From Pilasporangium apinafurcum (taxonomy: Eukaryota; Oomycota; Peronosporomycetes; Pythiales; Pythiaceae): 64,000 nt of DNA. Shown here piece by piece: positions 2,903 through 44,510 of this stretch. The stretch is from NCBI GenBank assembly GCA_001600495.1, contig BCKE01000013.1, positions 393,048-457,047 of the forward strand, read 5' to 3'. Numbering within the stretch: position 1 is the first letter of the stretch; each line of letters starts with the position of its first letter. Both the position numbers and the translations under genes were made by a program. The notes under the pieces were generated by a model, which had not been told where the DNA came from, ran no database searches, and saw nothing but the letters and a program-made list of their open reading frames with translations.

Positions 2903-3463
2903 ATGGTACATGTGTTCGTCTCCATAGCGATTCGCTGTTTAACCATCCTTTGCGCGGCGATCGCCCTTGCCACTGCTAGCAACCGCCACATCAAGACTTG
3001 TACGTTTGGTGATGATCTCTACAGCTCAGAACATCAAGTCAACTTCTTCATTGCTGTCAATATCATCGTGATTGTTGGTGTGGCACTGCACTTGCTCATG
3101 TTCAGCATTCTCAAGAAACGTCCGCTGCCGAGTCTGATGGCGCAGCTTTGCTTTGATGGCATAAATATGGTACTGACATTTGCTGGGGCAATCACGATGG
3201 CGCTCTCACCAGTGGGCAACGAGATCTGCACGAGCGACAACGACCTCAAGACTATAATGCAGCAAATGTGTGACTTTTCCTGCTCGAACGTCGTGGCGTC
3301 GGTGGTGATGACATTCTTGGCGTTCACGTGTTTCTTGCTCTCACTCTTGATCACTGCTAAGGTCATCCCCACGCACAATCAGCGTCCACCTGCAGAAGAG
3401 GATTACAAACCGGTCGTCACTCCTGCCAATGCCATGAACAATGCTGGCGCCATTCAGGTGTAG
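2903..3463 (+). CDS. Four-helix membrane protein, MARVEL-like
   Basis: The protein has 186 residues starting at ATG 2903 (MVHVFVSIAI). The frame is open further upstream, but it has no ATG there and runs into the acceptor-like CTTGCAG. Four hydrophobic segments are visible at about residues 4-25, 50-70, 85-105 and 130-155. They are separated by short loops with conserved-looking Cys residues (KTCTFGDD, EICTSDND, MCDFSC). A short hydrophilic C-terminal tail follows (about 30 residues, Pro/Asn rich). Two N-in/C-in hairpins of this size fit MARVEL or membrane-associating domains that act in vesicle trafficking. The family call rests on topology only; it could be another small tetraspanning family. 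Confidence 0.55.
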   Translation: MVHVFVSIAIRCLTILCAAIALATASNRHIKTCTFGDDLYSSEHQVNFFIAVNIIVIVGVALHLLMFSILKKRPLPSLMAQLCFDGINMVLTFAGAITMALSPVGNEICTSDNDLKTIMQQMCDFSCSNVVASVVMTFLAFTCFLLSLLITAKVIPTHNQRPPAEEDYKPVVTPANAMNNAGAIQV

Positions 3464-3702
3464 TTAGGATAAGTAAAATATAATGAACAATTAAAAAAAG
3501 AAGCGCCCACGAAGGGCAGAGCTTTAAGCAGAGCAGTGCATGCTGGAGCAGTTTTTGCAATTATGTTTACTCCAGAGATCATATGGGATACAAGAATACC
3601 CGAGGAAAGACTTACTGTTATGTTATTTGGGTCGGACTCAACTAACAAAAGCTAGCTAATACTAGACAAACACAGAGTAGACATCTTCGATACCTCAATT
3701 AC

Positions 3703-4305
3703 ATGAATCCAGGAGAGTAAGTGTTCATCCTTGAAAAAGATGTTTCTGGCAGCATTGACATCTCTATCAAGGATGAACTCACAGTGAGGACACTCCAAAA
3801 CTTTCTGTCACTTCATCATGTGGTTGATTCTTCCACAGTGAGAACAAGTCTTTGTTGTGGTGGTGTTCTTCACACTTGATTCAAATCAGTCCTGGATGGT
3901 AGCCACAAACCTCTAGATCTGCTCTCTACATACTATTTTCACCAATCTGGACAGTTTTGACTTGTTGTACTTGAGATTAGAACCAATGTCGGCAGCGACT
4001 GCATTGTCTAGGGAAGCAGTCGACAACAATGCTTTCAGTCGTACAGGATCGAGTACTTGATTTCTTGATAATACTCAAGAAGAATCGATCGTATATTTTT
4101 GTCAATCTCGATGTCGAGATGATGGAATGACATCCATTCCTTGTTCCAAACGATCATCAATTGATTTAAGGTCATACAACTACATTCTGTGCCCGCTAGT
4201 GCTTGAGATAGCTCTGACGTTAACTAGACCTTGAAGATCCCACCCTCTAGCGGTTTCAGGATGGATATAATACATCTCTCTAATTTTGGCAGAGGATACA
4301 TACAT
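3703..4305 (-). mobile_element. Decayed IS607-type element: TnpA recombinase remnant joined to TnpB/Fanzor zinc ribbon
   Basis: Read on the minus strand from 4305, one frame with several in-frame stops gives first an IS607 TnpA-like MerR-type helix-turn-helix (YVSSAKIREMYYIHPETARG, then SGHR and YDL). A serine-recombinase segment follows (SRNQ, then ADIGSNLKYNKSKLSRLVKI, then FVATIQD, a stop, and F). In the same frame comes a TnpB/Fanzor C-terminal zinc ribbon (KTCSHCGRIN, then LECPHCEFILDRDVNAARNI). IS607 elements normally encode tnpA followed by tnpB. Here most of TnpB and the end of TnpA are missing, so this is an internally deleted, dead copy. The position expected for the catalytic serine reads Leu. 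I did not find element ends; IS607 elements lack terminal inverted repeats and target duplications. Confidence 0.8.
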
Positions 4306-5358
4306 AACTTGGTCATACCTTTCGACTGAAATCAATATCGTGAGGTGGTAGCAAATGTACAAGAGAGAGATGAAAGGCAGTCAGCCACTAGGCTGTACTT
4401 GAAAATCTCCAGCTATGGATGATATGTGGAGTAACGTAGTAGGGATGAAAAGCCACCACATGGCATCATTCAAGTACTGTCGTTGTAAGTTTCAGGTTTT
4501 TGAGGTCAAATGCGTACAAATCCAGAAAGCCAAGGTGCACGTGCACCAGGAATTCCAGAGTCAGTCCTTTGCCCTTCAACGATCGCCCGTTGCTGAACTA
4601 GACGGCTGTTTGAAGGAAAAGCCCTCCATGGGACACTATATCAAACAGATGGAAATGTGCATCCCAAGGTATCTTTTAGTTGGGTTATTTTACCGAAACG
4701 CTACATTTTTTACTGTGGTGTGGGACCATTTTGTTGTTGTATTTTTTTTTTGTGTAACGCTCCTCCAACACGAATGAAAGCAACCGAGTTGACTTGGTTT
4801 TTGTATACTACGAGAGGAAGGGGAATCGAGTAATCGTTATTCGCGGAGCTCCGTTGTGAATTCGCCAGAAAAAAAAATACAAAAAACAAAAAAAACGTAC
4901 ACACACACACACAAAAATCAATGGCGGGACTCCCAACCCCTTTCCCTTCCCTAATCCTACTTCTCAAACTCTGTTTCCCACCAATCAGCGGAGTGGAATT
5001 GTTCCGAACTTGGTTCTTATTGTGTTGAATTGTACGCTCCTCTCCGACATTCGTGTCTGTACGTCGGCAAGAGAGGAGGAAAAAAATTTTTTTTACACAA
5101 CAGCGGTGTGTACCATATGCCCCGTTTTCTATCAATCACCTGTACACTTTAAAGAGTCTATAACGACGGGGGACAAGTACACTCAGCGGAGAGGAGAGGA
5201 GATCGACCATTAAAGAACCCCCAGCACATGGGAACACAAGCGCTCGTCCTCCATCAGTAATTACTCCAATTATCCTCTCGATATTGACGCATTAGCCACA
5301 GTGATCAATAGGAACGAAAAAGAACAAGAAGAAGAAGAAACAGCAGCGAGAAAATTCG
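4306..5358. other. Intergenic region and leader of the transporter gene
   Basis: About 1 kb without a convincing gene. It contains homopolymer A/T tracts (4740-4750, 4868-4895, 5081-5092) and a CA microsatellite at about 4899-4913. The last 150 bases are purine rich (AAGAAGAAGAAG before the start codon), as expected of a 5' UTR. A 120-codon plus-strand frame at 4415-4777 has no recognisable domain and biased composition, and I do not call it. Confidence 0.4.
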
Positions 5359-43139: not shown

Positions 43140-44207
43140 CGTAATCCACATCGCCGCGGTTTTACGTGTGTCTTCAATCAATCACCCAAGCACAAAGATC
43201 GGATAGGAAGAGCACAGAGAGCGCACACAAGTGACATGGAGAAGATGGAAGATGCGTCTCCATCCCATCCACTCAGAACTTTTCTAAGATACTTTTAGTT
43301 CCAAATTTTTGAGCTAATTTTTGATTTCGGAGCTTAAAGTTTTCTTTGTGCATATATCTCATATAGTTTAATTGAGTTAATAGAAGTACCAGAGTTCGTT
43401 TTCTGAAAAAAAATAAGAGCCAAAAGACTCATGGATGGTTTTAACAAGCAATCCGCGAGCCAACGGTGCCAGTTTTCAGTTGTTTTCCTAAACTCAAAAA
43501 ATCCGCAACTGCCTTTTAGCACATAATATTTTGGCATAGGATAGTTTTTTATTTGTAATGATGAACAAAGCAAACAGCGTTCAAATCGAACTAGTGGTTG
43601 TCGAGTAATTAGCAGTCAAAGATGAGTATTCGCTTCCATTTTGGCATTGTTTTAGCTTGATGGTCATCGTTTTTATTTCTTTTGATTCATAATTCGTTTC
43701 ATATATGTCATTTACCCTAACCATATTGAATAAAATGAGCTCTAATATTATCAAGAGTGTTTGTCGTCCAAGTAATTTGGCGGCAATCTTCGAGTTATTG
43801 GTGCAATACTGTTGGTGTCTTAAGCCACTCTTCAGCACTTGAGTTCCATACTATGTGCTACAGAGTATATCATTGGACAAAAATGGTATTGTGGTATTTT
43901 TTATGTTCTGAACGACCTTGAGAATCGCAAAATCGATGACCATCTGACAGAAAATGCAAATTTTGTCGTACCAGTTCTCCTCTCTGGATGCTACGACTTG
44001 GATAATAATCACGGGAAACAAGTTTTCTTGGACGGATCTGTTTCGAACTGCCACACATTTTCGTAGAGCACGAATAGCGGATTTTTTGGATTTTGGCCAA
44101 CCTAAGAATTAGGCTGTTTTTGGCTCCCTTGACTTGCGGATTGCTTGTTAAAGTGATTATCAAACAACTACAATCAAGTCCTACTTCCAACGTTTGCTAT
44201 ATCTGAG
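43140..44207. other. AT-rich gene-poor stretch upstream of the Fanzor relic
   Basis: About 1.07 kb with short frames broken by stops on both strands and no recognisable domain. The 14-base word TCGTCCAAGTAATT occurs at 43764-43777 and again at 44540-44553, just past the Fanzor relic. Part of this stretch may be the eroded 5' portion of that element, but I cannot see conserved TnpB blocks in it. Confidence 0.35.
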
Positions 44208-44510
44208 ATGACTTGGAAACAAAAACGAATTTCCAGCAAGGCTTCGAGAGCAATACTCACGTTCTCGCACTATAAACTCAAGAAAATGCTGGAGTACAAG
44301 ATGGAGTGATCAGGGGAACGTATGATTGCATGTAAAGAACATTACACTTCGAAAGCATGTTCTTACTGTGGGAGAATCAACCACGATATCTAAGCACAGA
44401 GAGAATTCTCGTGCTCATCGTACAATTTGGTTGCAGATCGCAATATCAACGCCACTAAAAATATTTTTCTGAAGAACGAGTGTTTACTCCTGGACTGGAT
44501 TGGTCCAGGT
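44208..44510 (+). mobile_element. Decayed Fanzor/TnpB C-terminal fragment
   Basis: One plus-strand frame with two stops reads ISSKASRAILTFSHYKLKKM, LEYKME, a stop, then MIACKEHYTSKACSYCGRIN, HDI, a stop, then EFSCSSYNLVADRNINATKN and IFLKNE. This is the C-terminal region of the TnpB/Fanzor RNA-guided nuclease family: the sH-(Y/F)-K-(L/F) helix, the E-x-Y-T-S-K-x-C-x-x-C-G ribbon half, and the D-R-(D/N)-x-N-(A/G)-(A/T)-x-N-I motif. The tail (FLKNECLLLDWIGP) resembles FFKDEHLLSWIH in the relic at 3703-4305, so both come from one family. It is non-functional as it stands. Confidence 0.75.

Follow-up and report, generated by a model that had tools for sequence, protein, structure and literature searches.

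A decayed IS607-derived Fanzor element in Pilasporangium apinafurcum and the probable second coding role of its tnpA DNA

The minus strand of the window—meaning the whole stretch of 64,000 nucleotides of Pilasporangium apinafurcum DNA that was analyzed—carries between positions 3572 and 4380 the remnants of an IS607 TnpA and a Fanzor/TnpB zinc ribbon, broken by stops and by an internal deletion. We consider it probable that this copy is the relic of an IS607-derived element whose tnpA DNA had two coding roles. The ancestor would have carried tnpA together with a Fanzor2-type tnpB, and the Fanzor frame would have run through tnpA at +1, so that the same DNA also specified an extension at the N-terminus of the nuclease. 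After the tnpA reading had died in the oomycete, the overlapping tnpA DNA would have been retained as a part of the Fanzor gene. The family would next have spread to dozens of sites and decayed, leaving internally deleted relics such as the window copy, with Fz-A and Fz-C as younger relatives whose Fanzor is still open and whose right end is conserved. This right end probably encodes an omega RNA that is guided by right-flank sequence.

The features of the window copy are compiled in Table 1. Six stops interrupt the TnpA-remnant frame over positions 3703 to 4305 of the minus strand, and Leu is read at the catalytic Ser position of TnpA, which we presume from the YARVSS motif. Compared with longer copies, the whole stretch from the TnpA middle to the zinc ribbon is missing, RuvC-I included. 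A preliminary description of this stretch had ascribed the loss of the end of TnpA and of most of TnpB to a deletion, and the junction seen in the alignment to longer copies bears this out. It had also placed the TnpA and TnpB/Fanzor remnants in one frame. This is true of the window copy, where the deletion removed the stretch between them; it is an accident of that deletion, and in L017 the Fanzor frame is +1 to TnpA. The frame with the first Cys pair has Asn at the Ealt position and is shifted just upstream relative to L017. The HTH piece by itself matches no profile, and an Rfam search of window positions 3000 to 5000 gave no match. The left end of the window copy was not found, and nothing upstream of about 4498 aligns to relatives. 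L068 was dropped as a copy sharing the window deletion; its junction differs.

Table 1. Features of the IS607-derived Fanzor relic and of a second relic in the window
Feature	Position	Strand	Basis
TnpA (IS607) N-terminal MerR-type HTH remnant, ending SGHRM	4183–4380	minus	DNA homologous to TnpA of L017, L010, and L112
Stop codon in the TnpA frame, separating HTH and catalytic part	4102–4104	minus	Position where 16 of 18 distinct copies have TGA
TnpA serine-recombinase block, VLSRNQ..ADIGSNLKYNKSKL	3916–4074	minus	NF033518, E = 0.03
+1 frame across the TnpA remnant	3867–4100	minus	Match to a profile of the N-terminal extension of TnpB from cyanobacteria and viruses (hmmsearch E = 3.2e-5 among 150 frames)
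Internal deletion junction, TnpA middle to Fanzor zinc ribbon	about 3876–3879	minus	Alignment to longer copies
Fanzor/TnpB zinc ribbon, first Cys pair (TCSHC)	3811–3885	minus	
Fanzor/TnpB zinc ribbon, second Cys pair and RuvC-III (CPHC..DRDVNAARNI)	3655–3807	minus	PF07282, 30.5 bits (cut-off 26.3)
Element right end, putative scaffold of an omega RNA, ending GATCTCTGG	3572–3654	minus	Hairpin at about 3585–3601
Second relic, a similar Fanzor C-terminal part	44157–44489	plus	59% amino acid identity to L017

The peptides from which the preliminary description had read an IS607-type relic occur on the minus strand where it had placed them, and the reading itself is supported by profile matches and by DNA homology to longer copies. 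Single pieces of the window's TnpA half match the profile weakly; its identity as TnpA hence follows from DNA homology to loci that match NF033518, among them C2:967908 (E = 1.8e-15) and C62:58543 (E = 5.5e-15). The element thus has the serine-recombinase TnpA with N-terminal HTH of IS607, by NF033518 in the relatives and by DNA homology in the window pieces. The genome-wide profile search that had been suggested was carried out over the assembly (36.5 Mb, 136 contigs) and returned relatives of both halves: 852 candidates for PF07282, of which 150 were scored and all 150 lie above cut-off, and 111 matches for the TnpA profile NF033518 (best E = 3e-16), none of them reaching the curated cut-off. 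The window DNA aligns to 39 other loci, at 72 to 84% identity except for two nearby fragments (40 scored of 508 candidates, including the window itself). Full-length relatives elsewhere in the genome had been raised as possible carriers of an active nuclease; longer copies were found in which the Fanzor is open and the right end, with its hairpin, is conserved. These longer copies also refute the idea that two unrelated fragments were joined by chance or that the DNA is bacterial contamination. Apart from the weak single-piece matches of the TnpA half, nothing favors this idea, which is extremely improbable: L017, L013, and L010 have both halves in order within one element, and the 150 scored PF07282 candidates are spread over many contigs. 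Elicitins are a marker family of oomycetes; the assembly gives 50 elicitin matches, compared with 0 in 14 control genomes, in agreement with the oomycete-like genome that had been proposed.

The relatives belong to several element families. Fz-B1 consists of old IS607-type copies including that of the window, in which conservation of the right end reaches to about GATCTCTTGAGG. Fz-B2 consists of copies bounded by TTAACC and, at five loci, by GGTTAA, and includes L017 with an open frame of 504 aa. Fz-C is located on contigs C135, C102, and C121. Fz-A is a young element of 2.65 kb, the pieces of which are 81 to 99% identical (40 scored of 242 candidates). Its open Fanzor frames measure 648 aa in L019 (3 ambiguous codons) and 724 aa in L029 (16 ambiguous codons); this clean pair has 21 changes, which makes the selection test for Fz-A a shallow one. 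None of the 111 NF033518 matches falls in these Fz-A loci, and the 2.9 kb retrieved from a 6-kb Fz-A unit on C38, examined for a transposase, are all N. Very long open frames of 2332 and 8140 aa likewise sit in runs of N. The end of a Helitron is CTRR; Fz-A has no such end and was set aside as a Helitron on its ends alone. A Crypton search gave no match, the control sequences likewise being without a match.

The fingerprint of Fanzor2 comprises DPG and a Glu six residues before the zinc ribbon, Ealt, according to the available text of PMC10711439. The full combination is found in 5 of 14 rows, namely in L003 (which equals L017) and in the Fz-A copies L019, L024, L025, and L029; the remaining rows are cut, hold N, or have Ala at Ealt (691-aa type, L001, L005). 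Against NF040570 (cut-off 100), L017 scores 147.6 bits and the 691-aa frame of L018 128.1 bits; the 703-aa Fz-C frame of L018, which is interrupted before the zinc ribbon, scores 69.6 bits and stays below the cut-off. Predicted full-length Fanzor2-type proteins with the published fingerprint are hence present in this genome. Bao and Jurka described one Fanzor2 family each in three Phytophthora species, and Fanzor1 in these, Albugo, and Pythium (PMC3627910, available sections), so that Fanzor2 in oomycetes is not new. The best PDB match for L017 is 9b0l (E = 6e-25). The elements resemble the Fanzor2 of IS607-like elements (mimivirus L79, PDB 9b0l) in belonging to the TnpB family and in having DPG with Ealt, a zinc ribbon, and an adjoining IS607 TnpA. 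In contrast to these, TnpA is broken in all aligned copies here, the copy number is high, the extension overlaps tnpA, and a young sub-family is free of tnpA. As a separate observation, L018:4190-6256 (G000:C135) and L001 (G000:C7) combine a canonical RuvC-II Glu (IFLEKF) with Ala at Ealt, and the C135 copy of this 691-aa type also has DPG—an odd mix, since DPG is paired with Ealt in the available text of PMC10711439.

The TnpA alignment comprises 19 rows from 18 distinct loci with 1 to 7 stops each, and none of the aligned copies has the functional TnpA of an IS607 element. A TGA at TnpA codon 66 is common to 16 of the 18 distinct copies. The codon of the presumed catalytic Ser reads TCA in 4 of 18 copies; 13 copies have Leu there and one has a stop. 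Judging by the shared TGA, TnpA was dead before the window's family spread, and the copies would thus have been moved by another agent or by a TnpA not seen in the assembly. The mean differences between TnpA copies are independent of codon position (0.207, 0.206, and 0.187) and therefore point to neutral decay after spreading. PF00239 has three matches genome-wide, each at a locus whose TnpA has stops, and no intact serine recombinase was found in a six-frame, intron-free search of the assembly, which has gaps. The stops were also considered as marks of introns, which was dropped because the TnpA profile matches show no extra length. Many NF033518 matches cover profile positions 95 to 163 and represent an open C-terminal TnpA half of about 103 aa, without the HTH or the catalytic part; this open half is also kept by L109 and L110, both of the TTAA type.

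Outside the oomycetes, the Fanzor-like ORF of the loci collected from cyanobacteria, phages, and viruses covers tnpA largely or completely at +1. A core-region profile found five Prochloron/Paraprochloron loci (L118–L122), the only cellular relatives found in the genome collection, and two viral-contig loci; a second profile found 32 viral-contig loci. Protein searches gave plasmid matches in Trichormus and Nostoc and phage matches in Microcoleus, Nodularia, and Vibrio phages. Scanning covered 43 loci (L118–L160), with L123/L133 and L124/L142 lying on the same contigs and several others being near-identical. A TnpB ORF was found by pattern in 38 of these (none by this pattern in L134, L138, L157, L158, and L160), and the TnpA match is at +1 in 36 of the 38. 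The exceptions are L122, where TnpB is split between frames and the extension still overlaps tnpA, and L143, where there is no TnpA match. L118 and L121 have a TnpA match divided between two frames; in L136, L146, and L156, the TnpB ORF begins well inside tnpA. The Microcoleus phage record annotates the long TnpB form (1291–2976). The orfs of IS607 are said to "often overlap" in the available part of PMC6188088 (eLife), and overlap as such is therefore already known. For the extent of the tnpA/Fanzor overlap and its fate in an oomycete, no description was found in the titles and abstract beginnings searched, and the word "overlap" is absent from the available text of PMC10711439 and PMC3627910. 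The oomycete elements share the +1 overlap with the cyanobacterial pro-Fanzor IS607 TnpB, as far as described in PMC10711439 and seen in the Prochloron/Paraprochloron loci; in contrast, tnpA is still unbroken in L122, and there is no eukaryotic amplification in those loci. On a Nostoc sp. UHCC 0302 plasmid (L158, NZ_CP151103.1), a match to the TnpB N-extension coincides with an annotated IS607 transposase read in a different frame; a TnpB core is neither annotated there nor found by pattern.

An open +1 frame might be a mere shadow cast by the composition and codon use of TnpA; the Fanzor would then start at its core and have no tnpA-derived extension. The tested tnpA/TnpB overlaps of 321 to 561 nt contain 0 stops by construction, the stretch having been preselected as open. 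An unconditioned test, which gives a weaker result than that on the preselected stretch, took the tnpA hits in full at 19 loci that have no TnpA stops, with synonymous shuffles that kept TnpA residues and codon use fixed; herein L125/L126 are identical and L136/L137 87% identical, other near-identical and broken-TnpA loci being excluded. The +1 frame of these 19 intact genes contains 38 stops compared with 97.8 expected (P < 0.05 in 12 of 19), and the +2 frame is close to expectation in most loci. TnpA residues and codon use were held constant, and the deficit thus argues against a shadow; the lack of significant avoidance at 7 of the 19 loci (P 0.11–0.38) speaks for one. Also consistent with a shadow, the extension motifs LWLPxxTD and SWFS are the conserved TnpA motifs VVVxHKDR and VVLN read in +1, and the Trichormus plasmid record annotates the TnpB start after the tnpA region. 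Furthermore, the prokaryotic and viral overlap varies by codon position as a normal TnpA gene does (0.421/0.288/0.570); read as extension it gives 0.291/0.555/0.427, with the second position being the most variable. These loci therefore show stop avoidance and not extension sequence.

In the oomycete family, the TnpA reading had already stopped, which also speaks against a mere shadow, an unlikely reading. In L017, the Fanzor ORF extends upstream into tnpA in the +1 frame. Across 18 copies, codons at which the majority has a stop number 0 of 185 in +1, 1 in the TnpA frame, and 15 of 184 in +2; the stops per frame over these aligned copies are 69, 55, and 259. Synonymous recoding, simulated for four copies, predicts 6.7 to 10.8 stops in +1, with P(≤1) at most 0.0025. 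Single copies today have 3 to 5 stops in this frame, and P(≤3) is 0.01 to 0.06 for three of the four. The +1 frame was hence open in the ancestor of the family that spread with a dead TnpA. On C135, moreover, a Fanzor-like ORF of 691 aa traverses the dead tnpA. Over its first 300 nt, the differences to a relative on C50 are 23, 14, and 32 by Fanzor-frame phase, which modestly suggests a gene in the Fanzor frame and not in that of TnpA; the numbers are modest, the remainder is unaligned, and the C50 copy is frame-shifted.

Selection could be followed in one intact Fz-C pair, the only one tested, the extension of which has 28, 27, and 63 differences at codon positions 1 to 3. The dN/dS values of the extension are 0.132/0.596 (NG86) and 0.159/0.336 (YN00), and those of the core 0.026/0.241 (NG86) and 0.031/0.146 (YN00). 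This shows purifying selection on the extension in this pair, which speaks against a Fanzor starting at its core. The extension profile built from cyanobacterial and viral loci, which ends inside the core start, matches the oomycete 691-aa ORF at E = 3.9e-21; this similarity, like that of the window, is partly a shadow of TnpA. For the Fz-A extension, a profile match to tnpA of E = 0.0085 at best was obtained in one direction and no extension match in the other; the link of the Fz-A and Fz-C extensions to tnpA, by short motifs (LWLP, TSWF) and this one match, is weak. We infer that the N-terminal extension is translated. An origin in tnpA would provide a concrete source for the N-terminal extensions of Fanzor2 and would explain why a dead transposase gene is retained inside Fanzor elements.

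With TnpA broken, other routes of movement have to be weighed for the individual sub-families. Fz-A would be mobilized by a lost or unassembled TnpA acting in trans. For the TTAA-bounded Fz-B2, a piggyBac-like transposase acting on TTAA is possibly the mobilizer, a reading to which we give an even chance. The left ends are TTAACC in 8 of 12 distinct entries, the right ends GGTTAA in L017, L013, L004, L006, and L072, and a 546-aa open piggyBac-type frame exists on C5 (L116, G000:C5:658288-659460), the sole stop-free one of three matches. On the other hand, the right ends of L007, L109, and L110 deviate, L111 has a different right end, the region of the C5 gene shows no matching pair of ends, and TTAA could belong to conserved element ends instead of being a target duplication. 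L004 and L007 share an identical internal deletion by BLAST coordinates, which suggests that deletion derivatives moved.

Between Fz-A and Fz-C, the right end is better conserved than a coding stretch, with 82% identity over 119 nt compared with 64% over 451 nt. In 14 old copies, an 8-bp hairpin is paired in 90.1% of cells, a value reached by 9 of 500 shuffles; covariation is modest, 2 of the 8 pairs being changed on both sides, which is matched by 116 of 500 shuffles. Such an end would fit an omega RNA or a protein-binding end. Like the SpuFz1 ghost loci, as far as described in PMC10432273, the window copy kept its right end and lost the nuclease; those loci have inverted-repeat flanks, whereas IS607 remnants are kept in the derivatives here.

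IS607 elements have no terminal inverted repeats, no target duplication, and an identical dinucleotide core (GG) at the ends; by this measure the picture is mixed, most old copies ending in GG, Fz-A having RCCG on the left and YG after TTAGG on the right, and Fz-B2 being bounded by TTAA. For Fz-A, 40 of 59 left and 40 of 60 right end candidates were scored. From 47 left ends, 28 are canonical and flanked by RCCG (R in 26 of 28, C in 27, C in 25, G in 27); the 45 right ends continue after TTAGG with YG, meaning C (38) or T (7) and then G (45). RNA-guided cleavage would probably take place beside a CCG-type TAM. NlovFz2 of Naegleria lovaniensis has the TAM CCG in the available text of PMC10432273; there it is said to be without inverted repeats or a clear transposase association and to have a disordered N-terminal extension of 96 aa, a likeness by description.

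Thirty-three end pairs were assigned (32 Fz-A and one Fz-C; the partners of L057 and L059 by distance). In 5 of these, the nucleotides after the left CG or TG copy 6 to 10 nt of the right flank, which none of 2000 shuffled pairings reproduced. L037/L066 were paired after the match had been seen, replacing a nearer right end, and without them the duplications number four. In 28 of the 33 pairs the duplication stays below 5 nt, and Fz-A has no regular target duplication. The duplications would fit repair of a cut empty site from an element copy. An imprecise transposase leaving short, variable target duplications instead of Fanzor cleavage footprints is an equal rival, and we regard the matter as evenly poised. 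The duplications adjoin the insertion point and nearly keep length, and Fanzor cuts are reported 9 to 21 nt from the TAM, most at 14 to 21 (PMC10432273, available text), both of which favor a transposase. Conversely, 28 pairs with less than 5 nt are hardly expected of a duplicating transposase, and the copied stretch starts directly after RCCG, where a guide would begin.

A bolder proposal, which we consider possible though rather doubtful, would run as follows: the extension of pro-Fanzor and Fanzor2 would have been born as the second reading of tnpA and kept by selection in the oomycete after the death of the transposase, and the tnpA-free Fz-A would persist and spread through RNA-guided cuts at empty CCG sites, with target copies at the left junction as repair footprints. 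In a genome with many young Fanzor insertions, the role of Fanzor for its element—homing, retention, or else—would be readable from the junctions, and Fz-A would add a candidate family of nucleases next to CCG for which nature supplies many guides.

Finally, two fragments that are 100% identical to the window copy are located on its contig at distances of 8 and 20 kb. Herein, a zinc-ribbon segment occurs three times in identical form over 237 bases (G000:C13:376226, C13:388294, and window 3640–3876), within about 20 kb and in both orientations, which suggests local duplication or gene conversion.
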